Assembly: GCA_017462755.1 (NCBI GenBank)
Contig: JAFTQM010000020.1
Span: 1 to 32,698 of the forward strand
Source of the DNA: Lachnospiraceae bacterium
GTDB lineage: Bacteria > Bacillota > Clostridia > Lachnospirales > Lachnospiraceae
Direction: 5' to 3'
DNA: 32,698 nucleotides
Shown: positions 842-23,221 of the stretch, one piece after another
Numbering within the stretch: position 1 is the first letter of the stretch
Layout: every line of letters starts with the position of its first letter
Position numbers and translations under genes: made by a program
Notes under the pieces: generated by a model
Database searches by the model: none
Seen by the model: only the letters and a program-made list of their open reading frames with translations
What the model was told of the DNA's origin: nothing

Positions 842-2524
842 TCACTTCAGTTCCTTCAATTCCCGATTCTGAATCTGAATTTCCCTGTCACAATACTGCA
901 ATACGGACCGACGATGGGTAATCAAAAGACAGGTCGGTGCCGGTGTCCAGTTACGGATGCCCTCCAAAACACGCAGCTCCGTTTCTTCATCCAGCGAAGA
1001 GGTCGCCTCATCAAGAATCAAAAACGGTGCCTTACGCACCAACGCTCTGGCAATCGCAATCCGCTGTGCCTGTCCCTCGGACAAACCATGTCCCTTTTCA
1101 CCGATGACGGTATCGAGACCCTTCGGCAGACTCATCACAAAATTATATGCGGCAGCGCCCCGCAGCGCTTCATACATCTCCTCTTCCGTCGCATCCAGCT
1201 TGCCCATGCGGATATTTTCCCGAATGCTGCCGCTAAAGAGCGTATTTCCCTGCGGCACATATGCAATAAACTCGCGCGCCTTCGCATTCGCCGGCTCGCA
1301 TTCTCCAAGGCTGTTATAAAATTGAATGCTTCCCATCGCGGTGTTCGTAAATGCCATAATCAACCGAATCAATGTGGTTTTTCCGACACCGGATTCTCCC
1401 ACAATGGCAGTAAACTCTCCCGGACGAAATTCAATATTCGCATCCTTTAATACCAGTTCCTCCGTATAACCGAAGGAAAGCTGCTCGACCTTCACGCCTA
1501 TGCCCTCCGGACGAATATTTTCTGTCTGCTTCTCCTCTTCCGGAAGCTTCTGCAAATCAATGATACGACCGGAGGAGGCTAAGACCGCCACAATCTTTGG
1601 TATGTATTCTGCCAGTGCAATAATCGGACCCTGCACGCGGTTTACTAACGTCAAAAACACCGACATCGTACCAAAGGTAATCTCACCGCGGGAAATACAT
1701 ATGGAACCCCATGCAAATGCCGCGATATACCCGAACTGAAAGGTCAGTCCCATGACCGTCGATGCCACCAGTCCCATTCTGCTCTTTTTTAACATCCAGT
1801 GCAACCGCTCATCTCTTAACGCTGTCAGACGATTTTCCGAATACTCCTCCGCGCAAAAGGATTTTACAATCAAGATATTTGCCAGACTTTCCTGTACAAA
1901 CGAGCGATACTTTGACTCCGATTCCTGCACCTTGATTTGAAGCAGCTTCAACCGCTTTCCCAGCCAAAGACTGCTTATCGCCGCAATCGGTGCAATCACC
2001 AGTGACGCACACGCCAAACGCCAGTCAAAATACGCCAGTGTACAAAAGGTCGCCACCAGCTCAATGCTCAACCGGATGATTGCAGGTATTGTCGATGAAA
2101 TTCCTTCCGCTACAATTCCCACGTCAGAAGTAAGACGCGTCATCAAATCACCGGTATGATACTTCATAATCTCCAGCCAGTTGGTATCCAGCACCTTGGT
2201 ATAAACCTGCTTTCGAATACCAAATGCGAATTTTTCATTTACAATAACAACCACCAGCGTGGATATTACGGAAAACACCTGACTAATCAGCACCACCAGC
2301 ACATACAGCAGTACCGTATTCATTACTTCGCCGCCGCCGCTCGCCTTATCAATCATTTCCTTTCCGATTAACGATAAGCCGATGGACGCAAACGTCGTCG
2401 CAATTCCCAACAGCATAATCAGAATCAGCTGCGGAATATATGGCTTCGAATATCGAATCAACCATTTCATATAACGGGATTGATTTTCCCAATCACCAAA
2501 GAACCGTTTTATCTTATCCAGCAT
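842..2524 (-). CDS. ABC exporter, fused membrane and ATPase domains (560 aa)
   Basis: A half-transporter that would work as a dimer in the cytoplasmic membrane to export a substrate with ATP hydrolysis. Residues about 30-320 form the six-helix exporter domain. The ATPase follows: Walker A GESGVGKT (376-383), Q-loop Gln425, signature LSEGQ (481-485, in place of the usual LSGGQ), Walker B LILDE (502-506) and H-loop His537. There is no N-terminal C39 peptidase domain, so it does not process a leader itself. An ATG preceded by GAGG sets the start. It is the last gene of the polysaccharide operon, 32 nt after the B2-like gene, a pairing typical of lasso and related peptide clusters. A lipid-linked glycan is an alternative substrate. 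No terminator follows it. Confidence 0.85.
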   Translation of the reverse strand: MLDKIKRFFGDWENQSRYMKWLIRYSKPYIPQLILIMLLGIATTFASIGLSLIGKEMIDKASGGGEVMNTVLLYVLVVLISQVFSVISTLVVVIVNEKFAFGIRKQVYTKVLDTNWLEIMKYHTGDLMTRLTSDVGIVAEGISSTIPAIIRLSIELVATFCTLAYFDWRLACASLVIAPIAAISSLWLGKRLKLLQIKVQESESKYRSFVQESLANILIVKSFCAEEYSENRLTALRDERLHWMLKKSRMGLVASTVMGLTFQFGYIAAFAWGSICISRGEITFGTMSVFLTLVNRVQGPIIALAEYIPKIVAVLASSGRIIDLQKLPEEEKQTENIRPEGIGVKVEQLSFGYTEELVLKDANIEFRPGEFTAIVGESGVGKTTLIRLIMAFTNTAMGSIQFYNSLGECEPANAKAREFIAYVPQGNTLFSGSIRENIRMGKLDATEEEMYEALRGAAAYNFVMSLPKGLDTVIGEKGHGLSEGQAQRIAIARALVRKAPFLILDEATSSLDEETELRVLEGIRNWTPAPTCLLITHRRSVLQYCDREIQIQNRELKELK

Positions 2525-2556
2525 TTGCTACCTCATTTCTGCGTTGTCTTTTCGCA

Positions 2557-2991
2557 TTACGCCCTGAATTTATCTACCACTGCATAGCCCTGTCCGTCTC
2601 CGCCGGTTACAAAAAGCCTGCCGCAGCGCAGCCATGCATGTGCAATCATCGTTCCGTCTTTCTCTAAGCCACAGCCCAGATACAACGTCGTCTCTATCTT
2701 CTTTTTCCGCAGCAGCCGCTGTGCCGTCAAGGCACGCACCAGACATTTGCTTTCCCAGCGTGTCTTATTGCACACCTGATTCACTGCATAGGCTACCTTT
2801 TTTGCATAGCGGTACTCCTGCAACGTCGCTTCCTCCGGTGATTCCTCGCCTTCTGCGCCCCACTTGGCATTCAGCTTCTTGCTCTTTTTGTGCAGTATCT
2901 GAAACCGATATATCGCCGAATACATCCACGCCTTCAGCGTCAGGGTTTTATGTTCATTATAGCGGATAAACCGATATATTCTGCCAAACAT
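2557..2991 (-). CDS. Lasso-peptide B2-like transglutaminase-fold protein (144 aa)
   Basis: It resembles the B2 family (Transglut_core3), the cysteine proteases that remove leader peptides from lasso precursors. The probable catalytic residues are Cys83 in SKCLVRAL and His118 in AHAWLR; Asp132 in GGDGQGY is a candidate third member. The length is usual for a B2 protein. The gene starts exactly where the VanZ-like gene stops (TAG directly followed by ATG), implying coupled translation, and an ABC exporter follows. The usual partner B1 (PqqD/RRE) is encoded about 19 kb away on the other strand, and no lasso cyclase is present. Family assignment is good. The substrate is unknown, and it could act on a peptide or have been recruited for polysaccharide-linked chemistry. 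Confidence 0.8.
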   Translation of the reverse strand: MFGRIYRFIRYNEHKTLTLKAWMYSAIYRFQILHKKSKKLNAKWGAEGEESPEEATLQEYRYAKKVAYAVNQVCNKTRWESKCLVRALTAQRLLRKKKIETTLYLGCGLEKDGTMIAHAWLRCGRLFVTGGDGQGYAVVDKFRA

Positions 2992-3579
2992 CTATTCCTC
3001 TGCCTCCCGTTTCTTCCTTTGCTCTGCCAGCCGTTTCTGAACCGCAATCATACACAAGGCACCCAACACACCGCCTACCGTATTGGTTTCCAAATCCACC
3101 AGCTCCACATAGCCGCACTGCAGCATATACTGCTGCAGCTCAATGCTAAAGCTCATCAAAAAGCTGTAGCATGCTGTCATCAGAATCCTTCGCCAGCCCT
3201 TTTCCCTGTCCTGCAGCAGCAGAATCATCGCACCAAAGGGCAGAAAAAAGACCACATTCAGCAGATTTGCCGTATTGTCATCCATATTGCTTCCAAACCA
3301 CAAAAGATTGGTCCGCACAATACGTTCCGGCATTCGGATACGTCCCTGCACCGCAAGCACCCACATAAAAATAGCGTACATACCGAGCAGAATCACCAGA
3401 AGTTCTTTGCGAAGATTGCGCTTTTCTCTGCACAGCCTTGCTTTTATTAACGCCACCAGCTGTACTACAATAATCAGCATTACCCAAAGCTCGACCAGCC
3501 CCATGAACTCGATGTGTCCCATCTCTTTCTCACTCATTTTTATCAGGCTCGCCCAGAACTTGTTCCAAAATTCACTCAT
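2992..3579 (-). CDS. VanZ-like membrane protein (195 aa)
   Basis: A small membrane protein with hydrophobic segments near residues 27-45, 60-80, 107-123 and 165-180. The central block NLLNVVFFLPFGAM, then SIELQQYMLQCGYVELVDLETN and GGVLG, matches the VanZ-like signature (conserved Glu, Gln, Asp, Asn and Gly). VanZ proteins are associated with teicoplanin resistance and are common in Firmicute envelope loci; their biochemical activity is not settled. The protein ends in a charged tail. It abuts the B2-like gene with no spacer and follows the GT2/pyruvyltransferase gene by 26 nt, so it belongs to the same operon. Confidence 0.8.
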   Translation of the reverse strand: MSEFWNKFWASLIKMSEKEMGHIEFMGLVELWVMLIIVVQLVALIKARLCREKRNLRKELLVILLGMYAIFMWVLAVQGRIRMPERIVRTNLLWFGSNMDDNTANLLNVVFFLPFGAMILLLQDREKGWRRILMTACYSFLMSFSIELQQYMLQCGYVELVDLETNTVGGVLGALCMIAVQKRLAEQRKKREAEE

Positions 3580-3605
3580 TCCCTTGGTCCCTCTATCTCT
3601 TTCAA

Positions 3606-5639
3606 CTACAATATTTGTTCATCAATCTTTTTGAACTCATCACTAAAATCCGTTTTACAAACAGGCTCCGGGATGTTATCCATACCGTTCAAAAACTGCT
3701 CCACTGCTTCTATGTTCTCGCAATAATACAAATAATCGCACTTTGCCAGTGTACGATACGTCTCATATACTTTATGATGATTATTTCCAAGTACAATGCA
3801 TGGTGTTTTGGTAATCAAACTAAAAATCATTCCATGGAGGCGGTCCGTAATTACAAGACGAGCTTTTGCAAAAGTAGCCCATTTTTCTAATAATACCGAC
3901 TCCCGCTCTTCCATTTGCAGTTCCTTGGCTGCTATGGTATCCGTTACTCTTACCTGCTTCGCATTCTTCTTCGCAATTTCATACAGCTGCTGCTTCTGCT
4001 TACTGTTTAACGCACTTTCTTTATCCGAACGCAAACAAAGTAAAATATCCTTTCTTGCTTCCGTATTCAGATTTCCTTTATCTAACGATACAACAATATC
4101 TACCATCTCTACTACCGGATTTGAAAACATCGCTTTCATAATCTCGGCCGAACGATGGTCTCTTGCAAAAATCGTCAAATCTTTGCACGCAGAATAAACC
4201 TTTTTCATTTCCTCCGCTGTTTTTCTGCCTTGCTCATCCTCCGACAAATAGATGGTTTGCGGAAAAACGATGATTTTATTTTTGCCAAAAGCACGCAATA
4301 CTTTATTTCGGAATTCTTCCGCAAACGGATAAAGACTTCCCATATTTCCGCCGCCCTGACAAAAAATCACATCCTCTGCAGAAATCTGCTTTTTCAATGA
4401 CGGAATCACTTCCGGTGTTTTCCAGCCGTCAATCACAAATAACTGATATTCCGGATGCCGCTGTACAAATGCCTCCAGATACGCCTGTATTGCATACGCA
4501 ATTGCATGATCACCTAAGTTATCAAAGCACGGCAGCTCAAAAGCCACCAGTCTTTTTGTTTTGCCTGCAGACAAAGAAAAATCATACGGCGTTGTAAACC
4601 GGGCCTTCACTTTCTTCACTGCCTTCTTCGCCAGCCGTATTCCCTTTGCCATTTTCCTTCCGTATTTGTTATACGCTAAATATTTTTTGTAGACCTTCGG
4701 TGAGCCTGCATAAACGCGAAGCAGCTTTTTATCTTTCTCTGCAATAAGCGGATTTTGCAAAATCTCCGGTTCATAGTTCAGTAACAGCTCCCGCAAATAA
4801 CCGCTTTCTTCTTCCTTGCCTACTTTATGCGCAAACCGAATACAGGTATAAATATACGGCAGCATCCCCGCAACTGCCCATTCCTTTAACCTCTGATTGC
4901 GCTTTTTTTCATAAAACTCACAGCGCTCCTGATGCGCCTGCACAATATCTTTACAATTCCGATACCACTTTTCATCCGAGCTATTCCGAAACGAAATACT
5001 GTCTTCTCTTATCTGATAAAAATACAGATAGTCCGGAATCCAACAAATCGTTTTCGCCTTATCAAACAGAAGATAGGTTGTAGCTATATCCTCAAAATTT
5101 CTGCGATACGGATATCGAATTCCTTCGAACACTTCTCTGGTATACAGCTTGTTCCAGGCATAATTTTTCATATCCTTATCCTGCAGCAGCAACAGCTGTG
5201 CCTCTTCTCCGGAAAGAATTTTCATCTCATCCCGCGGTGCTTCTTCCATCACCAGCTTCTCGCCCTGCTCCGTATAAAGTCCGCATACCACAATATCGGC
5301 CCGGCACTTTACTGCTGCCCGGTACAATTTTTCGTACATATCGTCCTGTACATAATCGTCACTATCCACAAAACCTATATATTTGCCTTTTGCAACCTCT
5401 AGCCCTGCATTTCTTGCATCGGACAAACCACCATTTTCTTTATGAATTACCAGGATTCTATCATCTTTTGCCGCATACTCATCACATATCACAGGACAGT
5501 TATCCGGAGAACCGTCATCCACTAGAATAATTTCCAAATTCGGATATGTCTGGCGCAGCAGTGAATCGACGCATCTATGAATATATTCTTCCACCTTATA
5601 CACCGGGACAATAATTGTAATCAAATCCTGTTGATTCAT
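3606..5639 (-). CDS. Bifunctional GT2 glycosyltransferase / polysaccharide pyruvyltransferase (677 aa)
   Basis: Two enzymes in one chain. Residues 1 to about 230 form a GT-A family 2 transferase, with VPVYKVEEYI, nucleotide-binding DDGS (41-44), GLSDARNAG (71-79) and the metal-binding DSDD (92-95). A basic linker rich in Lys and Arg (about 320-348) leads to a polysaccharide pyruvyltransferase domain (about 360-650) with NLGDHAI (374-380), GGGNMG (429-434) and TDRLHGM (598-604). The first domain would add a sugar and the second would place a pyruvate ketal on a sugar, giving the polymer negative charge. It lies between wzx and the VanZ-like gene. The fusion is continuous with no stop between domains. 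Sugar specificity cannot be read from sequence. Confidence 0.88.
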   Translation of the reverse strand: MNQQDLITIIVPVYKVEEYIHRCVDSLLRQTYPNLEIILVDDGSPDNCPVICDEYAAKDDRILVIHKENGGLSDARNAGLEVAKGKYIGFVDSDDYVQDDMYEKLYRAAVKCRADIVVCGLYTEQGEKLVMEEAPRDEMKILSGEEAQLLLLQDKDMKNYAWNKLYTREVFEGIRYPYRRNFEDIATTYLLFDKAKTICWIPDYLYFYQIREDSISFRNSSDEKWYRNCKDIVQAHQERCEFYEKKRNQRLKEWAVAGMLPYIYTCIRFAHKVGKEEESGYLRELLLNYEPEILQNPLIAEKDKKLLRVYAGSPKVYKKYLAYNKYGRKMAKGIRLAKKAVKKVKARFTTPYDFSLSAGKTKRLVAFELPCFDNLGDHAIAYAIQAYLEAFVQRHPEYQLFVIDGWKTPEVIPSLKKQISAEDVIFCQGGGNMGSLYPFAEEFRNKVLRAFGKNKIIVFPQTIYLSEDEQGRKTAEEMKKVYSACKDLTIFARDHRSAEIMKAMFSNPVVEMVDIVVSLDKGNLNTEARKDILLCLRSDKESALNSKQKQQLYEIAKKNAKQVRVTDTIAAKELQMEERESVLLEKWATFAKARLVITDRLHGMIFSLITKTPCIVLGNNHHKVYETYRTLAKCDYLYYCENIEAVEQFLNGMDNIPEPVCKTDFSDEFKKIDEQIL

Positions 5640-5696
5640 TCTATACTTCCTCTCTTCCGCTCTTTTCTTTTACAGAATAGAAACAGCATTTACCTA

Positions 5697-7226
5697 TCAG
5701 CCTTTTCTCAATAAAACAGCCTTTGCTTTTCTCCAGATTATCCGGAAGCCTTCTGTTCTGCAATATGCAAGCATGAAAATCACACCACAAATTCCGCCAA
5801 TGATAACTCCCTTGATAATCAATGTTCCCCAATTCGTTGCTACAAACTCTTTGCTTACAAAAGATAATCCATAAACGGATAAAGCTACCAAGCACAGATT
5901 CTTTATTAAAGAACCATAATACCCCGATACCTTGCTTCCCAAATATTCTTTGAACAGAAGCTTAGGCTCGTACCAAAAATAAGTAGACAATCTGGCAACC
6001 GCAGATGCAAAAATAATTCCTGTAATTCCCCACAAATGTCCGAAAATAATCGACAAAACAATGTTCAATACAGCTCCCGTCAACATAATATATTTAGTTT
6101 TTATGTATAAGCCCGCTGCATCACGGAATGTCCATAATGGTTGCAAAACACAAGCCAGATAGGTGTTTAGGGTAATTGCCAGTACCGTAACCGTAGAAAG
6201 CGCAAAGCTCTCGCCCAACCATACCTTCACAAAATCATTTGCCATCAAACAAAACACACTGCTGATGACACCGCAGAAAATAAAGCTTGCAGATTGCATT
6301 GCATTAAATATTTCCAATCGCTTTGCCTGCGTTTCTTTTACAATCAAATTTCCGATGCTTGCCGTAAGCGCCGAAAAAACAATCTGCTCTAATAAAAGCA
6401 GCTTACTGCTGACCATCAGATAATTGGAATACACACCAACCATCGCGGTGCCTACAATAACAGAAATCAATATATTATCCGTTGCAGTAAATAAAGTTGT
6501 GCTCATCTTGTAAATGAACACCGATTTCATGTTAGCTATAATACCGTTTGTTACTTCTTTGTTTACCTTCTGTATCAGCTCTTTTTTGCGCAAAAACGGA
6601 AACTCTTTTTCCGTCCTTTGAGATGCTATAAAATTAATTATAAACTGCGCAATCACACCTATTGCCAGATACAACACGTAGTTTTTGGTAATCCAAAGCA
6701 AGACCATTTGCAAGACCACTTTTAATACAGAAAACAGCATTCGGATTTTCACAATCATATAATCCTTTTGGTCTGCAGTCAGTATGGTCGTTTTATAAAC
6801 GAAAAGATAAGATATTACCACATTCGCAAGCGCAAACAGATAATATACTTCCAAAAGCGGAATGTCCTGTTCCGTATTTACCAGATAATCCAAAAACGGA
6901 ATGCAGGCAAGTCCCAATATCAATACCACTAACGCGATTACATTGTAAATCTTTTTATAAAAATCTACCAAGGAAATCAGCTGTCGTTCATCCCGCTCTG
7001 CCAAGGGCTTATAAAAGCTGTAAGCCATCGCAGTGTTAAAGCCTAAATCCGCCATAGACAGCAATGTCAGTACATCCGAAAAAATACCGTTCAAACCCAA
7101 ATATTCTCTTCCCAATACCTGAATAAAAACCGTACGCGATACAAAGCTCAAAATCAGCGTAACTGCCTGATATATAAAGCCCATAACCATATTCTGCGCC
7201 GATTTCTTCACTCGTCCGTCCTTCAT
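5697..7226 (-). CDS. Wzx-type polysaccharide flippase (509 aa)
   Basis: A multi-pass membrane protein of the polysaccharide transporter (PST/MATE-like) family, expected to flip undecaprenyl-linked repeat units across the cytoplasmic membrane. The N-terminus carries the typical pattern FVSRTVFIQVLGREYLGLNG, followed by about 12-14 hydrophobic segments and charged loops such as the YKPLAERDERQ region. Length is normal. The start ATG follows AAGGG at 8 nt. It lies between the NTP_transf_5 gene and the GT2/pyruvyltransferase gene in the operon, which also has a Wzy-like polymerase and a Wzz/kinase, so the locus has the three core parts of a Wzx/Wzy pathway. Confidence 0.9.
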   Translation of the reverse strand: MKDGRVKKSAQNMVMGFIYQAVTLILSFVSRTVFIQVLGREYLGLNGIFSDVLTLLSMADLGFNTAMAYSFYKPLAERDERQLISLVDFYKKIYNVIALVVLILGLACIPFLDYLVNTEQDIPLLEVYYLFALANVVISYLFVYKTTILTADQKDYMIVKIRMLFSVLKVVLQMVLLWITKNYVLYLAIGVIAQFIINFIASQRTEKEFPFLRKKELIQKVNKEVTNGIIANMKSVFIYKMSTTLFTATDNILISVIVGTAMVGVYSNYLMVSSKLLLLEQIVFSALTASIGNLIVKETQAKRLEIFNAMQSASFIFCGVISSVFCLMANDFVKVWLGESFALSTVTVLAITLNTYLACVLQPLWTFRDAAGLYIKTKYIMLTGAVLNIVLSIIFGHLWGITGIIFASAVARLSTYFWYEPKLLFKEYLGSKVSGYYGSLIKNLCLVALSVYGLSFVSKEFVATNWGTLIIKGVIIGGICGVIFMLAYCRTEGFRIIWRKAKAVLLRKG

Positions 7227-7248
7227 CTGTACTGCCCTTCCTTGCTAC

Positions 7249-8421
7249 CTATTTTCTAAAATTCAATTGCAGGGAACGATATATGTTCTGCAGCGTCTCT
7301 ACCTTTTCCTGCTCCATGGAAAAGACCTGCTGCTTTTTTTCTCGTTTTCCCTTGTTCATTATTCCGTTGATTCCGCGCATTACCCATGCAACCGGCAACA
7401 GCCAGGTATGCTTTTCCAACCAAGGATAATGCTCTTTCATATACTCTATTCCCGGAAAATAGTACCACGTTTTCAATGAGCCCCCACGCTCTGCCTGGTC
7501 CTTGACAAATTGTCCCCAAACACCGTTTTCACCCTTGCCGTAAATTCCGCAATCCACCATATAATCAAATAACTGATTGTAAAATTCCGTAGCTTCCTTT
7601 TTTCCAAGCAATATCTCTGCCAGCATCCTCATATGCTCTTCAAATTTCGTCAGCCCTAGCTTCTGTAATTCCGTATTCAAATACTTCTTATCCAGTACGG
7701 AATCGTATTCTTTTAAATATATATATATATCTGCCACATTGCGGATTCCGCATCCGTTTTCATAAAAATGCTTCGCCATATGCGCAATCATATATATATA
7801 AAAATCTTCTTTTGAAAATTCATAAGTATACTGCGTTCCCGGTGTCTGTACTACCCTGAAATTGTCTTTGTAATACTGATATTGCCCCTTATCTACATTT
7901 TTGTCATAAAGCGCCCAGTGTGCTTCCAAAATAAGATTCGGCTGCTTCAAAAAGACTGCATGATGCTTTACCTCTTGAAGTTTACCATAGCCTGCTTTTG
8001 CAAGAATTTCTTCTGCTTTTTCAAAAGACTCTTCATAAAGCATAAAATCAATATCACTCATTTCCCGCATTTCCGGTGTAGGATACAATTGTTTTAATAT
8101 CACACCCTTTAATACCTGATTGCGAATTCCTGCCTGCTCGAACTTTTGTTGCAGCGACCTTGCTTCAACCACCTGCATCAAGGTTTGCAAAATACTATTC
8201 TTTACCTGACCGCGGAATCGATTTGCATACTCCTCCGGGAGCTCCAATTTCAATAAAGCTCCCAGAATCAAATACACCATATGTCCACGCTTTGCAATAT
8301 CTTCCAACATCTCCAACGTAATACCTTCCGGTACCGGTGCCGGAGTTCTTTTCTCAAATTGGGAAAGAACTAATTCACCCAGATACTCCATTATCTGCGT
8401 TTTTTTCACCTGCTTTTGCAT
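7249..8421 (-). CDS. NTP_transf_5-like nucleotidyltransferase family protein (390 aa)
   Basis: The middle part has the nucleotidyltransferase-fold pattern of this family (PF14907-like): VLKGVILKQLYPTPEMREMS then DIDFMLYEESFEKAEEILAKAGY, where the Asp-x-Asp is the likely metal site, followed by LEAHWALY. Such proteins recur in polysaccharide loci and in some Firmicute lasso clusters (for example paeninodin type), where they modify the product or a phosphorylated intermediate. I place the start at the ATG 8421..8419, which has AAGGAGG close upstream. Starting 24 nt earlier would translate that ribosome binding site as MGKGEGGR. Short AT-dinucleotide runs near 7717-7730 and 7789-7800 encode alternating Tyr and Ile. 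The reaction is unknown. Confidence 0.72.
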   Translation of the reverse strand: MQKQVKKTQIMEYLGELVLSQFEKRTPAPVPEGITLEMLEDIAKRGHMVYLILGALLKLELPEEYANRFRGQVKNSILQTLMQVVEARSLQQKFEQAGIRNQVLKGVILKQLYPTPEMREMSDIDFMLYEESFEKAEEILAKAGYGKLQEVKHHAVFLKQPNLILEAHWALYDKNVDKGQYQYYKDNFRVVQTPGTQYTYEFSKEDFYIYMIAHMAKHFYENGCGIRNVADIYIYLKEYDSVLDKKYLNTELQKLGLTKFEEHMRMLAEILLGKKEATEFYNQLFDYMVDCGIYGKGENGVWGQFVKDQAERGGSLKTWYYFPGIEYMKEHYPWLEKHTWLLPVAWVMRGINGIMNKGKREKKQQVFSMEQEKVETLQNIYRSLQLNFRK

Positions 8422-8454
8422 TCTTCCTCCTTCTCCTTTCCCCATAACAAACCT

Positions 8455-10638: not shown

Positions 10639-10662
10639 TTCCTGCCTCTTTTCTCGTCCCTT

Positions 10663-11490: not shown

Positions 11491-11505
11491 ACAAACTCCT
11501 CCTTT

Positions 11506-12456: not shown

Positions 12457-12493
12457 TCCAATCCTTTCTGTATCAAATGTATTTCTTCGTACC

Positions 12494-14874: not shown

Positions 14875-14929
14875 CCTGCTTCCTCACCTTGCTCCGGTTG
14901 TTCTTCTGTCAAATTCTTTTACCGAATGC

Positions 14930-15859
14930 CTATCCCTTGATTGCCATGTACAGCTCCACCGGAATCGACCGCCTCTTATGATAACAATCTGCATATGCAA
15001 ACATCAGCTTAAAGGTATTCCAATATTTTTTCTGCTCCAGCAATTCGATGCGCAGCTCGGTTGCCCGAATGTTTCGCTCCAAAAGCTTCTGCTTCTTCGC
15101 CGAAAGTCCCAGTGCCTTTGCAAACCGCAGGGTTGCCCTGTGACTGTCCGACAGCTGCTTTAAAAATCGAATCCGCTTTTCCATATTGCGCATCTTCTGC
15201 AATGATACATTCGACGAATGAAGGCGTCTGCGCAGCGTATAGGCATGGTACATATACAGACCATCCATGCACAGTGCCAACTTCCACACATACTCATCAT
15301 GCGCCCAGCCCTCGTACCAGTACTCTTTTGTTTTCTCGAAAAAGCTGCGGCGGATGCACATCGTACAGCCCTGACAGCCGATGAAAATATTCTTCGCCCG
15401 ATACTCAAGCTTCTCCAAGGATTTATCGTTTTTGAACTGCTTTAATTCCCATTCCGGCACGCTCATCGCATCCTCCGAGCTGACAAATGGTTCAAACTCC
15501 GAACCCAGTAACTGAATTTCCGGATGGTCTGTCATCAGCTGCTCCATTTCACGCACTCGGTTCGGCAGCCAGATGTCATCCTGGTCACAGAAAAAAATCA
15601 AATTCCCCGTGGTCTTTTTCACTGCGCCGATAAAATTAGAAGCATAGCCTAGATTCTTCGGATTGACTTCAATTCTCCAGTCCGGTGCAAGCTGATGCTT
15701 TTCAATATATTCCCGTACCACCTCTACCGTTGCATCCGAGGACTGGTCATCACAGATGATTACCTCATCCACCGGTCTGGTCTGGGTACGAATAGATTCC
15801 AGCTGCTCGATTATGTATTCTGCGCCATTGTAGGCCGCCATTGCTACTGATAGTTTCAT
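14930..15859 (-). CDS. Family 2 glycosyltransferase, rhamnosyltransferase-like (309 aa)
   Basis: The N-terminus MKLSVAMAAYNGAEYIIEQL, then CDDQSSD (36-42), PKNLGYASNFIGA (67-79) and CDQDDIWLPNRV (91-102), match the GT2 subgroup that includes many rhamnosyltransferases. The DQDDIW form of the metal motif is typical of that subgroup. The C-terminal part (about 220-309) is basic and helical. It is a member of the polysaccharide operon, between another GT2 and the polymerase. Rhamnose as donor is only a family-level hint, and no dTDP-rhamnose genes occur in the window. Confidence 0.88.
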   Translation of the reverse strand: MKLSVAMAAYNGAEYIIEQLESIRTQTRPVDEVIICDDQSSDATVEVVREYIEKHQLAPDWRIEVNPKNLGYASNFIGAVKKTTGNLIFFCDQDDIWLPNRVREMEQLMTDHPEIQLLGSEFEPFVSSEDAMSVPEWELKQFKNDKSLEKLEYRAKNIFIGCQGCTMCIRRSFFEKTKEYWYEGWAHDEYVWKLALCMDGLYMYHAYTLRRRLHSSNVSLQKMRNMEKRIRFLKQLSDSHRATLRFAKALGLSAKKQKLLERNIRATELRIELLEQKKYWNTFKLMFAYADCYHKRRSIPVELYMAIKG

Positions 15860-15892
15860 GCTCTTCCTCGTTTCTGCATTTCTGCCATGTCC

Positions 15893-16870
15893 TTAGCCCT
15901 TCATCAGCTTTCCTAACACGATGGCAAGCAAGCGGCTGTTCCAGCGCTTTACCAGTCGGATATAGCAGCCGATTTTTCCGGTAAAATACTCATTGCTCCG
16001 ATACTTCGGAAAATGCTCCTTAATAAACGCAAAGGTAGTATCCAAAAGCTCCGTCTGCAATGCTCTTTCCTGTACTCTGCCAATGCGGCTTAACGAGCTG
16101 CAAAGCAATATCTTTACGCAGAAATACTCCAGCTCCTTTTGATACTCCTCATAAAAGCCCTGCTTTTTATAAAAATCCAAGATATCCTGCAATACTTTAA
16201 AAATATCTGCTACCCGGCGACTCTTGTTCGCATTCATCGTCGAGTTGCCGCGCAGAAAATAGTACACCGGATGCTCCGGCAAATACTCTGCTTTCCTCAC
16301 ATACGGTATCGTCTTGATGTAAAAGGCGGTGTCCTCGTAAATCAATCCTTCCGGAAACACAATCGCATTTTCCAGCAGTACCTCTCTGCGATACAGCTTA
16401 TTCCACGGCGAAACCTGCGGGTCAATAAACATATCCTTCTGATTCTTGTACGCACGAATATTGCCTCTGGTTTTTAGCTCCTGCATTCCCTGCTCGGTTT
16501 CCTGAATGTAATGATAATGGCATTCGACCAAATCACAGTCCTTTTCCTTTGCCAGCCGGTACATTCTTTCATACATGGTACGGTCCACATAGTCATCCGA
16601 ATCCGCAAAGCCGATGTACTCCCCGGTACATTCGCGGATGCCAAGATTCCGCGCCGTCGCCTGACCGCCGTTTTCCTTGTGCAATACCCGCACCTTATCC
16701 GGATATTTCTTGGCATACTCCTCCAAAATCTGCGGCGAATCGTCCGTTGAGCCGTCATTTACGATTACAATCTCAATCTCCTCCAGTGTCTGTCCCACCA
16801 GCGCATCCAGACATCGCACCAGATACTGCTTTGTATTATATACCGGTACAATCACACTTACCTTCTTCAT
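15893..16870 (-). CDS. Family 2 glycosyltransferase (325 aa)
   Basis: A GT2 enzyme with VSVIVPVYNTKQYLVRCLDA, NDGST (38-42), ENGGQATARNLG (66-77) and ADSDD (89-93). The start ATG has GGAGG 5 nt upstream, inside the preceding phosphatase gene, and the two genes overlap by 35 nt. It is the first transferase after the Wzz/kinase-phosphatase pair, so it may act early in repeat-unit assembly. That is inference from gene order only. Confidence 0.9.
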   Translation of the reverse strand: MKKVSVIVPVYNTKQYLVRCLDALVGQTLEEIEIVIVNDGSTDDSPQILEEYAKKYPDKVRVLHKENGGQATARNLGIRECTGEYIGFADSDDYVDRTMYERMYRLAKEKDCDLVECHYHYIQETEQGMQELKTRGNIRAYKNQKDMFIDPQVSPWNKLYRREVLLENAIVFPEGLIYEDTAFYIKTIPYVRKAEYLPEHPVYYFLRGNSTMNANKSRRVADIFKVLQDILDFYKKQGFYEEYQKELEYFCVKILLCSSLSRIGRVQERALQTELLDTTFAFIKEHFPKYRSNEYFTGKIGCYIRLVKRWNSRLLAIVLGKLMKG

Positions 16871-17609
16871 CCCTGCCTCCGTTCTGCAGCAGAAGCTGCT
16901 CTGTCCGCTTCATAATCTCCTCTGCTGCACCGCCAAGCCGCTTTAGCGCCTTGGCAAAGCTCCGATATTTTTTGTCAATTCCATGAATGTCACTGCCCAA
17001 TGCTGCGACACAGCCGGCTTTCCGATACTGTCTGCAAAGTCTGTTCTTGCGCAGACTGCAGATGGAGGCTGTATTTAACTGCACCAGTATGCCTGCTTCT
17101 ACCAGCTCCATAACTGTCCGGTACGAATAACGCTCCGCGTGCGCCAGCACCACCTGTATCCCGCATTCCTGCTGTATCCGGCAGACCGATGCGATTAAGG
17201 CTGCTTCTTGCTGCTTCGCAAACGGCAGTTCGAGCAGTAACACCCTCGTTCCTTCAATACAAAGCCTCTGTAATCCTTCCATTCGCTCGATTCCGGCACA
17301 GGCAAGCACCTCCGCACCCGCTAACACCTTGGGCGCACTCTGCCGCTCTGCTTTTGAGGACGGCACCATGCTCTGATATACCTTCCACTGCATCTTAAGT
17401 GCCTGCATTGCCTCTGTCCTCTTTCGCAAATAAGACTCTACGGTATGCAGATGCGGGTAAAAATGTGAGGTTGCAACCACTACGTCTATCTTTTGCTGCG
17501 CGGCAAGCTCTAATTGCCTGCAGGCAACCCCGACATCCTCACAGCCATGGTCCAGTCCCGGCAAAATATGCGCATGAAAATCAATTCTTATACTTCGTTT
17601 CATATCCAT
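16836..17609 (-). CDS. CpsB/CapC-type PHP-domain tyrosine phosphatase (257 aa)
   Basis: A metal-dependent protein-tyrosine phosphatase of the PHP fold that would dephosphorylate the adjacent BY-kinase. Visible motifs: IDFHAHILPGLDHG (9-22, metal ligands His12 and His14), VVATSHFYPHLH (44-55), GAEVLACAGI, VLAHAERYSY and ALGSDIHG. In most relatives the first motif ends in Asp-Asp-Gly; here it is Asp-His-Gly, a change at a likely metal-site position. The start (ATG 17609, or the second ATG at 17603) lies inside the end of the kinase gene with a 29-nt overlap and no strong ribosome binding site, so translation is probably coupled. Confidence 0.88.
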   Translation of the reverse strand: MDMKRSIRIDFHAHILPGLDHGCEDVGVACRQLELAAQQKIDVVVATSHFYPHLHTVESYLRKRTEAMQALKMQWKVYQSMVPSSKAERQSAPKVLAGAEVLACAGIERMEGLQRLCIEGTRVLLLELPFAKQQEAALIASVCRIQQECGIQVVLAHAERYSYRTVMELVEAGILVQLNTASICSLRKNRLCRQYRKAGCVAALGSDIHGIDKKYRSFAKALKRLGGAAEEIMKRTEQLLLQNGGRDEEGKCDCTGI

Positions 17610-18978
17610 ACTGCTTATAATTATAATCCGGCGATTTCATCGAAATCCCGTTATAGATAAAACCACAAATATTTGCACCCAAAGCCTCCAGCTTTCGTAC
17701 AATCATCTCTTCCCGGTCAAACTTTGTTATCTGCTCACATACCACCAAAATATACGCGGTAATCTGCGTTCCCACTGCCAGCGCATCCGACACAATACCA
17801 ACCGGCGGCAAATCCATCAAAATAACGTCATAAACCTTTCTGCATGCCTCTAACAACGCAGCAAAATGGTCACTCATCAGCAGCTCCGTCGGATTTGGTG
17901 GAAACATACCGGAGAAAATAACATCCAGATTTTCATCCACGTTCGCTATTTCCGGCTGCTCAGTCATCCCCGCCAGATATTCACTCAAGCCGGTTTGGGT
18001 CTTCTCCATACGCAGCAGCTTATGTAATTCACTCTTGCGCATATCCGCATCGACAATCAGCACACGCTTGCCTGCCTGCGCAAAGGAACGCGCAATATTA
18101 ATACTGTTTAACGACTTTCCTTCGTTCGGGTCTGCACTGGTCAGCGCATATACTGGGCATTTTTCGCCCTTTGCCGTAAACAAAAGATTGGTACGCAGAT
18201 CACTGTATGCTTCCTTCATCACAAACGGACTGTCCTGCTGCAACAGCAAATCAATCGTTTCTTTTTTCTTTTGCGGCACCATACGCGGTATCGTACCAAG
18301 AATCGGTATCGTAAAGATATCCTCAATCTCGTACTTCCGGCGCACCGTAGTATCCAAAAGTCCCTTAATCAACGCAATACCTGCTACCAGCACAAAGCCC
18401 AGAATCGCACCAAGCAATGCATACTTGATAATACTGGTCGACGCATATGGCTGCGTCGGCAGCTCTGCCGAATCCAATACCTCAATACCACCCGATTTTA
18501 CAATTCGGATAATCTCTGCCGGTGCCAGCTCTCCGATAGCATTGGCTACCATCATCGCAAACATCGGGTCTTCGTCGTACACACTTACGATAAATACCGT
18601 CGTATTCGAAACCGAGGTGGCTCCGATACGATTTTTCAAATAATTCGTGGTATAACCGTAATCATCCAAATTCAGACTCTCTAACACCATCGTCAAAAAG
18701 CGGTTGCTCCTCAATATCTGCATATAGCTGTCCAGCAGCGAACGCGCCTGTGTTACCTCAGAGGTACTCAGATTCACGCCGGTATCGGTAATATAATCCG
18801 GATTGCTGTAGGCATAGAAGGAAATCCTCGCCACATAGGTGGACGACTGCGTCCGATAGGCGAAAAAGCCTGCTCCCAGTGCCAGAAGCATCGCCGCCAG
18901 TATCATATACTTCAGCTTTGATTTTATAATCCAAAATATTTTTTCCAAATGAAAATTAGATAGTATTGTCTGAAACAT
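17581..18978 (-). CDS. Fused Wzz chain-length determinant / BY-family tyrosine kinase (465 aa)
   Basis: This protein couples polymer length control to tyrosine phosphorylation in the cytoplasmic membrane. Membrane spans at about 24-41 and 185-206 flank the external Wzz domain, with the Pro-rich PTQP before the second span. The kinase follows: EAYSDLRTNL (256-265), Walker A SADPNEGKS (281-289), Walker A' VDADM (309-313), Walker B VILMDLPP (385-392) and a C-terminal Tyr cluster (452, 454, 457, 459, 463). In many Firmicutes these parts are separate proteins. I chose the ATG at 18978, with GGAGG at 5 nt; the ATG at 19041 lies upstream of the predicted transcription start. It heads the polysaccharide operon. 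Confidence 0.9.
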   Translation of the reverse strand: MFQTILSNFHLEKIFWIIKSKLKYMILAAMLLALGAGFFAYRTQSSTYVARISFYAYSNPDYITDTGVNLSTSEVTQARSLLDSYMQILRSNRFLTMVLESLNLDDYGYTTNYLKNRIGATSVSNTTVFIVSVYDEDPMFAMMVANAIGELAPAEIIRIVKSGGIEVLDSAELPTQPYASTSIIKYALLGAILGFVLVAGIALIKGLLDTTVRRKYEIEDIFTIPILGTIPRMVPQKKKETIDLLLQQDSPFVMKEAYSDLRTNLLFTAKGEKCPVYALTSADPNEGKSLNSINIARSFAQAGKRVLIVDADMRKSELHKLLRMEKTQTGLSEYLAGMTEQPEIANVDENLDVIFSGMFPPNPTELLMSDHFAALLEACRKVYDVILMDLPPVGIVSDALAVGTQITAYILVVCEQITKFDREEMIVRKLEALGANICGFIYNGISMKSPDYNYKQYGYETKYKN

Positions 18979-18983
18979 CTTTT

Positions 18984-18988
18984 CCTCC
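18984..18988 (-). promoter_or_regulatory. Ribosome binding site that sets the Wzz/kinase start
   Basis: GGAGG on the minus strand, 5 nt before the ATG at 18978. It decides the start against the in-frame ATG at 19041, which has no such site and precedes the predicted transcription start. Confidence 0.8.
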
Positions 18989-18991
18989 AAT

Positions 18992-19006
18992 CCATAGCGT
19001 CTATGG
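18992..19006 (-). repeat. Inverted repeat in the leader of the polysaccharide operon
   Basis: A 6-bp perfect inverted repeat CCATAG / CTATGG with a 3-nt spacer lies between the predicted transcription start (about 19023) and the ribosome binding site. It could be a small operator or an mRNA hairpin. Function is not shown. Confidence 0.4.
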
Positions 19007-19029
19007 CATTTTAGTATATAACTAACTTC

Positions 19030-19058
19030 ATTATACTGCATTTTCTATTTGCATACAA
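19030..19058 (-). promoter_or_regulatory. Promoter of the polysaccharide operon
   Basis: On the minus strand, -35 TTGTAT (19058..19053), a 17-nt spacer and a perfect -10 TATAAT (19035..19030). The predicted start near 19023 gives a leader of about 45 nt to the Wzz/kinase gene. No terminator is seen between this and the GH5 gene upstream, so read-through from that gene is also possible. Confidence 0.75.
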
Positions 19059-19098
19059 GATTTTTCTAACCACTTATTTCCTCTGCATTTTACATCAA

Positions 19099-21648
19099 TT
19101 ATTGCAGTTTTATATCTTGCATGTCAAAGAATGTGATGCCAAGTTCTAATACTTCATTCTTTAAATAGTCATCAAAATTTTTTCTCGGAATATTCGTATA
19201 CGGACTATTCATAGAAATCCGAACCGTCTTAGCACCTTCCGGCACCGCACATACATAATAGAGTGTTTGCAGTTCGAGTACACGATAGATTTTACCATTC
19301 TTAACCGTAAGCGGAAGTACCTGACCGTTTTTGTCATAAAAGGCAATGCGCTGCAGCCAAATATCCGTAGCTTCTTCCGTCGCCACCAGATTTACCATGC
19401 AATGGCTTCCCTCCGTCACCGGAATCTCTTCTGTCGCAATCGTTCCCCAATAGCTGAACACAACTTCGCCTGTCTTGGTATCTAACATACCATCCTCGTA
19501 CTGTTCCGGCTGATTGATATATATTCCATTCTCTATAGTACACATTTTCCCTTCTGCGCCATCTAATAATGCCTGTATCATCCCTTTGTCCGAGTTCGCA
19601 TAATGATTTCGATCAATGATGGCATAATTCGAACCATTATCCCACCAAATACATTTCATTCCATGCGCTGCAGCTCTTGCCACATAATTCGCCGCCTGAA
19701 TTTCTCTTAAGTCAGGGAACTCATAAGAATTCGATGTACCGAATTCACCGATAATAATCGGCACTCCGAGCTTGTTTGAAAAGGCTTCCAGCTCACTCAG
19801 CTCAGGTTCCAGCACCTGACTAAACTTCTTGGTATAAGTATGTACCTCGATTACAAGCCGGTCCTCTACCACATCTTTAGGCAAGACAAACGCATTTCTT
19901 ATCTTTGCACCAATGCCATCCAAAAGTGTCGGTACAATCAAAATTCGCATCGAATTATTGCCGCCGGTAGCGCGTACCGCATCCACAAAAATTTGATTCA
20001 AACAATTCATCTGCGCCGCAGCAGTCGCTCCATAGCTCCAGCTCTGTTCCAAATTGTCTATCTCATTGTACGCTTCAAAAATCAAATGCTCATCGTAGGT
20101 TTTAAAATGCTCCGCAATCTGCGTCCACAGCTCCTCCGCGTATTTATACACCTTCTGTATTTCCGCATCACTTACCCCGGCATAAAAAATCGGTTGCTCA
20201 TGATGTGCATTCAGAATAACATATAAATCATTTGCGATGGCATAATCCACAACATCCTGTACACGTTGCAGATATTGCTCTCCTATTACCAATTCCCCTG
20301 CTTCATTTATCTCCGTGTTATAATACCAGGTAACAGGAATTCGGATGGTATTGAAACCACATTCTGCCACATAGTCAATCAGCTCCTTGCACACATAAGG
20401 ATTGCCCCAGTTCAGCTCCTGCTTCAGATTAGCGTCCAAACCGCGATTCACGGATTTGGAATCCAAAGAATTTCCCAGATTCCAGCCTACATTGATAGCA
20501 TCGACAAACTCCTGCGCGGATAAGCTGCTCATTACTGTGTTATGCGGGTATTTCACATACTTCTCTATGAGCACCTTACCCTGCTCTGTCGCCATAAAAC
20601 CACCCAAATCAAAGGCTTCCTGAGATGTATGGGAAAGGGATATTGCTATGTATTTTGTTTCCTCCTGCTTCTTCCATTTGTATCCGTTCGCAAGTGTTGT
20701 TGTTCGAACCACTTCCCCTTTTTCTGAGATTTCCGTGATTTTTAACCGGTATTTCCCCTCCGGAAGTCGAATCCAATAGTAATCGTCCTTAACGATACAA
20801 CCTTCCGTATAAGCAAAATTACCTGTCGTTAACGCATACTTTCCCGTTGTTCTGGAATAATCTCCGTTATACCACTTCGTAACATCTGCAAAATCCACTT
20901 GCTCTAAAGCTACCACTTTATATTCTTGCTGTGGCACTTCTTTGGAAAGCTTTAATTCAAAGCCAAGTTCAAACAATCCTCTTAAATTAACGCCCCACTC
21001 CTTCGAACGCATGGTAACGGTAATATACTCTGTATTTTCTTGTTTTTCGAATTTACTTCCATCGGACAAATTATCCGTATACTTAAGCCACGACTTATCT
21101 GCATTATATTCATGAATGTCTACAACAATTCTGGAATCATTTATCGAAAGATAGTATACATCTTCTTCCGCTATCTTTAGATATTCTTTGGTGCATATAC
21201 TGCCATTCCCCTCTTCATATCCGCCTCCCCAGCTTTTATACCAACCATTCTTATAACTCTCCGGATTCGACAATGTCTCTCCCATTTTTTCAATCTGCGG
21301 TACCGGTGTCGGCGTTGGTGTTACTGTCGGTGTTGGTGTCAAGGTTGGCGTCGGCGTTACTGTCGGTGTCGGTGTTAACGTCGGTGTCGGCGTTACTGTT
21401 GGTGTCGGTGTTACTGTTGGCGCCTGCGTTGCTGTTGGTGCCTGCGTTAACGTTGGTATCGGCGTTGCTGTTGGTGTCGGCGTCAATGTCGGTGCCTGCG
21501 TTACTGTTGGCTCCGATAACCGGGTCGGTTCAATCGTCACACTCGGTTCCGGTGTTGGTGGCATCTCCGACTCTACCTTCTGTTGGCCGCAGCCTCCAAG
21601 CAATAATCCTAAAATGAAACATCCTGCTAATTTTCTTTTATATCGCAT
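19099..21648 (-). CDS. GH5 cellulase-like lipoprotein with Pro/Thr linker and accessory modules (849 aa)
   Basis: A predicted surface glycoside hydrolase. The signal peptide ends in a lipobox (LLGGC, Cys20), so it should be lipid-anchored. Residues 31-117 are a Thr-Pro repeat linker. Two similar beta-rich modules follow (about 121-235 and 243-365), each ending in a pattern like TEYITVTM or TKYIAISL. The GH5 domain (about 372-705) shows INVGWNLGNSLD, NTIRIPVTW, the acid/base in EAYNEID (Glu529), EVHTYT and the nucleophile in IIIGEFGTS (Glu635), with WWDNGSNY near the end. The C-terminal 140 residues form another beta-rich region. Substrate may be a beta-glucan or the locus's own polymer. It has its own promoter, divergent from pqqD. 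Confidence 0.9.
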   Translation of the reverse strand: MRYKRKLAGCFILGLLLGGCGQQKVESEMPPTPEPSVTIEPTRLSEPTVTQAPTLTPTPTATPIPTLTQAPTATQAPTVTPTPTVTPTPTLTPTPTVTPTPTLTPTPTVTPTPTPVPQIEKMGETLSNPESYKNGWYKSWGGGYEEGNGSICTKEYLKIAEEDVYYLSINDSRIVVDIHEYNADKSWLKYTDNLSDGSKFEKQENTEYITVTMRSKEWGVNLRGLFELGFELKLSKEVPQQEYKVVALEQVDFADVTKWYNGDYSRTTGKYALTTGNFAYTEGCIVKDDYYWIRLPEGKYRLKITEISEKGEVVRTTTLANGYKWKKQEETKYIAISLSHTSQEAFDLGGFMATEQGKVLIEKYVKYPHNTVMSSLSAQEFVDAINVGWNLGNSLDSKSVNRGLDANLKQELNWGNPYVCKELIDYVAECGFNTIRIPVTWYYNTEINEAGELVIGEQYLQRVQDVVDYAIANDLYVILNAHHEQPIFYAGVSDAEIQKVYKYAEELWTQIAEHFKTYDEHLIFEAYNEIDNLEQSWSYGATAAAQMNCLNQIFVDAVRATGGNNSMRILIVPTLLDGIGAKIRNAFVLPKDVVEDRLVIEVHTYTKKFSQVLEPELSELEAFSNKLGVPIIIGEFGTSNSYEFPDLREIQAANYVARAAAHGMKCIWWDNGSNYAIIDRNHYANSDKGMIQALLDGAEGKMCTIENGIYINQPEQYEDGMLDTKTGEVVFSYWGTIATEEIPVTEGSHCMVNLVATEEATDIWLQRIAFYDKNGQVLPLTVKNGKIYRVLELQTLYYVCAVPEGAKTVRISMNSPYTNIPRKNFDDYLKNEVLELGITFFDMQDIKLQ
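21298..21480 (-). repeat. Degenerate tandem repeat encoding a Thr-Pro linker
   Basis: Repeats of about 18 or 36 bp, differing mainly in third-codon positions, encode alternating TPTPTV and TPTPTL units in the GH5 lipoprotein. The linker probably holds the catalytic part away from the membrane. Such tracts can change length by slippage. Confidence 0.8.
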
Positions 21649-21682
21649 ACCCTTTACCTCAAACTTCTTTTACTTTTCTTTT

Positions 21683-21711
21683 ATTCTACACTATTTCACA
21701 TAGCCAAACAA
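21683..21711 (-). promoter_or_regulatory. Promoter of the GH5 lipoprotein gene
   Basis: On the minus strand, -35 TTGTTT (21711..21706), 17 nt, and -10 TAGAAT (21688..21683). The -35 is formed by the left arm of the 24-bp palindrome. GAGGTAAAGGG precedes the ATG at 21648. Confidence 0.6.
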
Positions 21712-21729
21712 GGAATATATTCCTTGTTT
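21706..21729. promoter_or_regulatory. Perfect 24-bp palindrome between two divergent promoters
   Basis: Two 12-nt arms (AAACAAGGAATA and its exact complement) meet without a spacer. Each outer end supplies the TTGTTT -35 of one divergent promoter. This is the geometry of an operator for a dimeric regulator. As plus-strand RNA it would also form a 10-bp hairpin with a TATA loop followed by seven T (21727-21733), but no plus-strand gene lies upstream to terminate. Confidence 0.65.
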
Positions 21730-21752
21730 TTTTCTCTTCTTTGCAGTATAAT
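21724..21752 (+). promoter_or_regulatory. Promoter of the pqqD-like gene
   Basis: -35 TTGTTT (21724-21729), a 17-nt spacer and a perfect -10 TATAAT (21747-21752) give a start near 21759 and a leader of about 54 nt. The -35 is the right arm of the palindrome. Confidence 0.65.
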
Positions 21753-21812
21753 AATAGTATATTTTTATACATTAAAAATATGGGGTTTATAGCTGACAGG
21801 AGGACGATACAT

Positions 21813-22079
21813 ATGGACAGAACCACAACCATTCGCATGAAAAAAAAGCTGAATGTTACGGATCTTGCAGGCGAGAAGGTTATGATTGATTTTGAATCCG
21901 GCAAATACTTTATGATCAAAGGCTCCGGAAACGATATCTGGGATTTGATTCAAAATGAGATTACCGTAGGTGAGATTATCACACACCTGCTTTCGGAATA
22001 TGAGGTTTCCGAGGAAGAGTGCGAAGCTTCCGTACTCGCATTCTTACAGCGCATGAAGGATTTGGATTTTATTTTCTAG
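21813..22079 (+). CDS. PqqD-like / RiPP recognition element protein (lasso B1-like, 88 aa)
   Basis: A small stand-alone PqqD-family protein. These proteins bind the leader of a ribosomal peptide and present it to modifying enzymes. Matching blocks: GEKVMIDFESGKYFMIKGSG (20-39), NDIWDLIQNEITVGEIITHL (40-59), then SEYEVSEEECEASVLAFLQR (61-80). The start ATG at 21813 follows AGGAGG at 9 nt; an in-frame upstream start at 21741 would precede the predicted transcription start and is rejected. This is the only clear plus-strand gene. It is divergent from the GH5 gene and convergent with the pssE-like gene. A B2-like protein, its usual partner, is encoded about 19 kb away. The peptide it binds is not visible. 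Confidence 0.82.
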   Translation: MDRTTTIRMKKKLNVTDLAGEKVMIDFESGKYFMIKGSGNDIWDLIQNEITVGEIITHLLSEYEVSEEECEASVLAFLQRMKDLDFIF

Positions 22080-23138: not shown

Positions 23139-23221
23139 TCCCACAACGCCCCCAATTTCATCTGAAAATGATTCTTACCTTCTCTTCTATGTTAGCACAC
23201 ACTTTTACAAATGAAAAGAAA

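Follow-up and report, generated by a model that had tools for sequence, protein, structure and literature searches.

A 32,698-base stretch of DNA from a Lachnospiraceae bacterium (GenBank assembly GCA_017462755.1, contig JAFTQM010000020.1), hereafter the window, carries within a Wzy-type capsule locus four genes of the kinds found in lasso peptide biosynthesis: those for a PqqD/RRE leader-binding protein (B1), a B2 leader peptidase, an NTP_transf_5 nucleotidyltransferase and an MsbA-like ABC exporter. The window is a complete contig (C83) of a 99-contig, 2.73-Mb genome (G000) that is 81.7% complete. The four genes are very probably those with which a paeninodin-type lasso pathway matures, tailors and exports a peptide encoded elsewhere, and on the best reading the cassette for that peptide was either left unassembled or has been lost. 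By sequence, the four window genes are intact open reading frames (ORFs), as are those for a kinase and a two-component pair on a second contig, C54.

Family profiles match all four window proteins, bearing out an earlier note on this DNA that had placed these parts in a polysaccharide locus. The exporter, of the lasso ‘D' type (842..2524, minus strand; PF00664 and PF00005, ABC_membrane and ABC_tran), shares 56–59% identity with the exporters of lasso loci L024, L027 and L031. The B2 gene (2557..2991, minus strand) encodes 144 residues, matches PF13471 (E 5.4e-20) and scores 72.4 bits with NF033537, lasso_biosyn_B2, whose cut-off is 33. Cys83 and His118, which we take to be the catalytic residues of B2, are intact, as the earlier note had observed; both are kept in 10 of 10 family homologues, and in a wider set Cys83 is present in 81 of 82 sequences (the one gap falling in a shortened ORF) and His118 in all 82. 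The loss of these residues in relatives, which the note had named as evidence against its proposal, was thus not seen. Because the position after the second Gly of B2 (D132 in the window) is variable, being N in 33 sequences, D in 23, T in 8 and other residues in the rest, we claim no third catalytic residue. In a B2 tree the window protein is nested in a clade of capsule-locus B2s, and a PDB search with the B2 profile returned a single weak match (E 1.8e-4). The NTP_transf_5 protein (7249..8445, minus strand; PF14907, E 2.6e-50), probably a peptide-tailoring enzyme, shares 45–48% identity with those encoded near B2 in L026, L027 and L028.

The fourth protein, B1 (21813..22079, plus strand; 88 residues), matches PF05402 (E 5.7e-19) and reaches 79.9 bits with NF033536, lasso_PqqD_Bac, 0.1 below the cut-off of 80. 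Its best PDB match is 9x90, the paeninodin-type RRE PbaB1 (E 1.9e-15), compared with E 0.022 for 9x8z, the RRE of the linear polyphosphorylated peptide (LPP) type. We aligned B1 with PbaB1 and mapped onto it the contacts named by Popov et al. (2026, PMC13381572). Of the 13 contacts that can be aligned, seven are identical (I42, L59, Y63, E64, V65, E69 and F77), four are conservative (F33, I35, E62 and M81) and two differ (S38 and S73), while the LppB polar contacts N33 and D70 are absent, K36 and S73 standing in the aligned positions. As PbaB1 is the nearest structure, with these seven shared contacts and without those of LppB, B1 appears closest to the paeninodin (W) type and would probably prefer WxxP leaders. 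All four proteins are thus lasso-family members, and the best-supported reading places them in a paeninodin-type pathway.

A kinase of the lasso-type, HprK-like family is encoded in the same genome on contig C54 (C54:19581-20483). It scores 331 bits with the lasso-kinase profile and 32.4 bits with PF07475, below the cut-off of 33.3, and is 54% identical to the kinase of L028, which adjoins B1 and an exporter. It is flanked by a response regulator and histidine kinase and, on the opposite side, by a Bac_transf initiating sugar transferase, so that in this block (L155 14013-17960) a two-component pair, a lasso-type kinase and an initiating sugar transferase stand together. In a tree of 90 kinases, whose support values were not read, the C54 kinase is sister to that of L045, a locus with a B2 72% identical to the window's in which NTP_transf_5, B2, Bac_transf, kinase and histidine kinase are contiguous; between C54 and L045 the Bac_transf proteins are 69% and the histidine kinases 72% identical. 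Similar response regulator–histidine kinase pairs adjoin the exporter in L047 (there by position), L061 and L129. Given the contiguity in L045, the sister kinases and the pairs beside exporters elsewhere, we assign the C54 block, on these sequence comparisons, to the window's genes. A division of kinases into clean cyclase-adjacent and exporter-adjacent clades did not hold, the tree showing a tendency with exceptions. Bac_transf found no match among the window proteins scanned; since the C54 block holds one, the capsule pathway may also be split over two loci.

In a congener, G299 (67% complete), one small contig carries a kinase and a cyclase, and a second carries an exporter, a histidine kinase (59%), a response regulator (66%) and a WxxP precursor, whose match to the paeninodin precursor family lies below cut-off. 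B2 was not found in G299, and a lasso-type kinase was found in none of the other four congeners searched, where the highest match reached 37 bits.

The company kept by B2 in relatives supports the lasso assignment. Among 299 family genomes, 9 have a strong B2 (E<=4.2e-17); 6 more have weak matches (PF13471 E 3e-7 to 9e-6, ORFs of 280–364 residues) and were set aside as presumed general transglutaminase-like proteins. All 9 strong-B2 genomes also have a strong B1, and 7 have a lasso cyclase above 400 bits; an eighth, G045, has a fragment of a second cyclase type beside B2 at a contig edge. The cyclase profile used (A2) is weak on this second type, and the family-wide search scored at most 4 candidates per genome (4 of 6 in G000). 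Queries from L027 and L107 moved L062, L107, G304 and G312 from the loci and genomes without a cyclase to those with one.

We also collected 79 B2 loci from named genomes with the B2 profile (best 80 of 119), fetching up to 10 kb on each side of B2, some stretches being shortened by contig ends. These stretches contain a cyclase in 52 cases, a precursor in 50, a kinase in 58, NTP_transf_5 in 54, an exporter in 57 and B1 in 57. At least two genes similar to the window's glycan genes occur in 36 of the 79 loci, itself a lower bound, which agrees with the co-occurrence with polysaccharide genes that the note had proposed to look for; 23 of these 36 have a cyclase in the stretch. B1 lies less than 1 kb from B2 on the same strand in 27 of 57 loci and elsewhere in the other 30, of which 12 have it on the opposite strand. 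The note had described the window's parts as scattered over opposite ends and strands, and the exporter (minus strand) indeed bounds the stretch that the note had named on one side, at 842, and PqqD (plus strand) on the other, at 22079; with B1 distant or on the other strand in 30 of 57 loci, such a layout is common among relatives.

A cyclase outside the immediate neighbourhood of B2 is likewise frequent. In 27 loci the stretch contains no cyclase. All but L114 (26 loci) come from genomes that were searched, and for 19 of the 27 a cyclase is encoded elsewhere in the genome: 16 score at least 150 bits, and the others are in G115 (L067), G304 and G312, the last two having a second-type cyclase beside a WxxP precursor. 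No cyclase was found in the genomes of L068, L084, L110, L113, L116, L118 and L119, where the 13 matches inspected against both cyclase types scored higher against AsnB. All six loci that share the window's synteny and lack a cyclase in the stretch (L044, L046, L047, L048, L055 and L061) have one on the same contig, 10–20 kb from B2. Within the window's own B2 clade, a cyclase accompanies 15 of 15 other loci, whether in the stretch or elsewhere in the genome. That of L121 is partial, and that of the L056 genome is split into two adjacent matches (G310:C3:88574-90361), possibly a broken gene. In Acetitomaculum ruminis (L097), a B1 (G203:C27:109207-109473, L131) stands alone, the surrounding 10 kb or so being free of further lasso genes, B2 and a cyclase share one further contig, and a kinase-cyclase-precursor-exporter set lies on another (G203:C14 L029, G203:C25 L133). 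As B1, the B2-cyclase pair and the second cassette lie on three contigs, this B1 apparently acts on unlinked partners.

The closest comparison of gene order comes from the complete genome of Blautia parvula NBRC 113351 (L046, L137-L139), which reads ABC-B2-NTP5-CotH-VanZ-GT32-GT32-Wzy-GT2-GT2-Wzc-kinase-precursor-cyclase-PqqD (opposite strand), the precursor being a weak match (15 bits); beyond PqqD come three more genes, one a sugar transferase, and then GT28C-Alg14. The window reads ABC-B2-VanZ-...-NTP5-CotH-GT32-GT32-GT2-Wzy-GT2-GT2-CpsB-Wzc-GH5-PqqD (opposite strand)-GT28C-Alg14. The two share a gene set, and in both PqqD lies past Wzc on the opposite strand; they differ in places in gene order, for example at VanZ and NTP5, and in that a GH5 gene in the window (19099..21648, minus strand; PF00150) occupies, between Wzc and PqqD, the site of the Blautia kinase, precursor and cyclase. 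Since the position of the cassette varies among other relatives, we treat this match as one comparison and not as a rule.

The missing cassette was sought throughout the window and the assembly. With proteins from relatives as tblastn queries, no cyclase, kinase, precursor or clear remnant of one was found in the window; the queries met ftsE only in brief P-loop matches, at E 0.001 or weaker, and a precursor query aligned over 30 residues within PqqD (E 0.003), the rest being likewise at chance level. When ORFs of 20–129 codons were scanned for leader motifs, a single candidate emerged, rejected as antisense to purD. The absence of cyclase and precursor from the window, which the earlier note had reported, therefore stands. 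Genome-wide, the note's suggested search for lasso leader peptides and a cyclase yielded neither. PF00733, the Pfam Asn-synthase model, detects 5 of 5 tested lasso-type cyclases at E<=1.3e-18, and yet in G000, with all 3 candidates scored, it recovers AsnB pieces alone, which makes it unlikely that the assembled part contains an intact cyclase. The match on C79 is an AsnB piece that begins MCSIAG, its Cys presumably being the AsnB nucleophile, and that on C93 reaches 151–215 bits with three AsnB proteins but never more than 15 with lasso cyclases. With a larger profile, built from 60 precursor sequences, precursors were recovered in G299, G115, G304 and G312; G315 matched weakly (E 0.021), and G045 and G000 did not match.

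Nor was a second lasso-type B1 or B2 found in the assembly; the note had said that a complete lasso cluster elsewhere with its own B1 and B2 would count against its proposal. Other PF13471 matches score 20.4 and 14.1 bits, below the cut-off of 26, and the 20-bit transglutaminase match on C44 was rejected as a second B2 for this reason. A second PqqD domain, on C89 (24.0 bits, cut-off 23.4), was dismissed as a lasso B1 because it is part of a radical-SAM/SPASM protein, which we take to be of the SCIFF-maturase type.

Several observations weigh against a pathway completed from elsewhere in the genome. No lasso cyclase was found in assembled G000, where PF00733 at E<=1 returned two AsnB pieces, and precursor profiles A5 and A7 gave no match there at E<=10; G000 is the only one of the 9 sampled strong-B2 family genomes without a cyclase. 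The loci on contigs C83 and C54, as read, have no cassette and are set among housekeeping genes (rpoB; purD to rplL), those flanking the C54 locus having been named by eye. That B1 and B2 can occur without the rest is indicated by G026, with a strong B1 and no B2, and by Romboutsia lituseburensis L110 (9691-10396), in which B1 and B2 lie side by side, no cyclase, kinase, precursor, NTP_transf_5 or exporter was matched in the 20-kb stretch, and AsnB-type matches alone were found genome-wide. Even so, we think it probable that the cyclase and precursor are present in the organism and missing from the assembly; with 18% of the genome missing and the congener's cassettes on small contigs, an unassembled cassette is the simplest explanation.

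The earlier note had left two explanations side by side, a peptide encoded elsewhere and recruitment of B1 and B2 to a glycan-linked role. The former is best supported, as the four parts accompany a cyclase, kinase and precursor in relatives and the C54 kinase lies in the same genome. The latter, whether as capsule protein processing or as the joining of peptide to glycan, we regard as very improbable: capsule-gene neighbours, frequent around B2, are all that speaks for it, and complete, cyclase-bearing lasso clusters have such neighbours too; B1 resembles a leader-binding RRE, and no sequence feature pointing to a glycan substrate was seen. That unrelated PqqD, transglutaminase-like and ABC genes became neighbours by chance is hardly credible, for although PqqD lies about 19 kb from B2 on the opposite strand, distant or opposite-strand B1 genes are common and strong B1 accompanies strong B2 in all 9 sampled family genomes that have the latter. 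A more serious contender, which we still consider unlikely, is a relic from which the kinase-precursor-cyclase cassette was recently deleted or replaced, the remaining genes being undecayed. The position of GH5 at the Blautia cassette site, the lack of a cassette at both the C83 and C54 loci, and the patchy gain and loss of paeninodins in Bacilli (PMC13381572) all fit such an event; the intact ORFs for B1, B2, NTP_transf_5, exporter, kinase, response regulator and histidine kinase at two loci, and the incompleteness of the assembly, speak against it.

Less probable than a relic is a cyclase-free pathway, in which B1, B2, kinase and NTP_transf_5 would yield an exported linear phosphopeptide in parallel to the published LPPs. 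LPPs show that linear relatives exist (PMC13381572), and in four Clostridium loci (L113, L114, L116 and L118) genes for WxxP precursors, kinases, B1, B2 and NTP_transf_5 occur with no cyclase in 20 kb; the genomes of three of them gave AsnB-type matches alone, that of L114 being outside the search. These four loci are candidates for a cyclase-free B2 pathway. For the window, the want of a precursor in G000, the lasso cyclases accompanying all 15 other loci of its B2 clade and the nearness of its B1 to the W (lasso) type count against a similar scheme, and a cyclase-free offshoot in this lineage, making a linear phosphorylated peptide tied to the capsule, seems correspondingly improbable; were it real, B2 would have to be seen not as a lasso enzyme but as a peptidase for WxxP leaders in general. 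The Clostridium loci have up to 7 kinases, and several of their precursor cores are rich in Cys and His. By a rough pattern, a plausible ring acceptor is present in 2 of 14 scored Clostridium WxxP precursors versus 59 of 93 parsed (of 95) elsewhere.

The note had further ranked these parts as the window's best candidate for an undescribed system, and this did not hold, since clusters of the kind have been published. For Bacilli, PMC13381572 describes lasso clusters of the paeninodin type lying within capsular polysaccharide loci. Lasso clusters of rumen Butyrivibrio and Lachnospira, in which PqqD, HPr kinase, a nucleotidyltransferase and glycosyltransferases occur, were reported by Sabino et al. 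(2020, PMC7533575), who counted 23 incomplete and 11 complete ones; similar clusters are listed in the Hungate1000 collection (PMC13289728). The window genome shares with the Bacilli clusters B1/RRE, B2, an HprK-like kinase, an NTP transferase, an MsbA-like exporter and capsule genes, but in it no cyclase or precursor was found, the parts lie on two contigs and the host, not a Bacillus, appears from its named relatives to be a Clostridium of Lachnospiraceae type. The rumen clusters have related hosts and the same accessory genes, those called complete in PMC7533575 including, unlike the window, a cyclase (LasC). LPPs, too, combine an RRE, HprK-like kinase, NTP transferase and MsbA-like exporter with no cyclase, yet they use an archaeal-type, signal-peptidase-like enzyme instead of B2, with a YxxP leader (PMC13381572), where the window has B2 and a B1 without the LppB contacts. 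No signal peptidase was found among 27 window proteins scanned with Pfam, and no genome-wide SpI search was made. A limited search of the open-access literature turned up no paper on B1 and B2 serving unlinked cassettes. The kind of system is thus already known; what is new in detail is this particular member and the way in which it is split.

Under the paeninodin-type reading, with substrate and reaction order inferred, B1 would bind a precursor, made elsewhere, at its WxxP leader, B2 would remove this leader through its Cys/His centre and an Asn-synthetase-like cyclase would close the ring. The HprK-like kinase of C54 would phosphorylate the C terminus (often Ser), the NTP_transf_5 protein would add to the phosphorylated C-terminal end and the MsbA-like ABC protein would export the product, the response regulator–histidine kinase pair beside the C54 kinase probably controlling the pathway. 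A lasso pathway in Lachnospiraceae can accordingly be divided, with B1, B2, NTP_transf_5 and exporter in a capsule locus and kinase-precursor-cyclase cassettes 10–20 kb off or on other contigs. Rule-based programs that call a cluster only where peptidase and cyclase occur side by side might overlook or misinterpret loci of this kind. The biological roles of paeninodins and LPPs are stated as unknown in PMC13381572; cultured relatives, among them Blautia parvula and Butyrivibrio, now allow the role of paeninodins at capsule loci to be tested.

The remaining genes of the window place these parts in context. From rplL at one contig end (32275-32652) to the 5' part of rpoB at the other (2-562), every gene is on the minus strand except PqqD. 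After rplL come a PucR-like regulator, ftsE, ftsX, two genes whose products we take to be M23 and S41 peptidases, purM, purN and purD, and then the GT28C/Alg14-like two-part glycosyltransferase (22210..23144, minus strand; PF04101, PF08660), PqqD, GH5, Wzc, CpsB, two GT2 genes, Wzy, a third GT2, two GT32/Caps_synth, CotH, NTP_transf_5, a Wzx-like gene, a GT2-pyruvyltransferase fusion, a VanZ-like gene, B2 and the exporter. The run from the CotH kinase-like gene to Wzc spans 8455..19041 (minus strand). The VanZ-like membrane protein (2992..3579, minus strand; PF04892) belongs to the same gene run as B2, and 3606..7226 (minus strand) holds the fusion (PF00535 and PF04230) and the Wzx-like flippase, which matches NF041503 weakly, at 24.7 bits against a cut-off of 300, and has no Pfam match. 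Wzc/tyrosine kinase, CpsB, Wzy and several glycosyltransferases score above their family cut-offs, and the locus is a Wzy-type capsule locus.

Some observations stand apart from the lasso genes. The fusion gene at 3606-5639 encodes one protein of 677 residues, a GT2 glycosyltransferase joined to a polysaccharide pyruvyltransferase. Proteins that look lipoprotein-like by eye and have long Thr/Pro repeat linkers are encoded at 19099-21648 in the window and at 7100-9349 in L135; in one of the two the linker precedes a GH5 domain. Although rpoB and rplL are usually adjacent, about 31 kb of capsule, pur and ftsEX genes separate them here, at opposite ends of the contig. rpoB was not found in the fetched loci of relatives. 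In the Butyrivibrio loci L068, L071 and L082, whose B2s come from a different clade than the window's, the lasso locus directly follows rplL.

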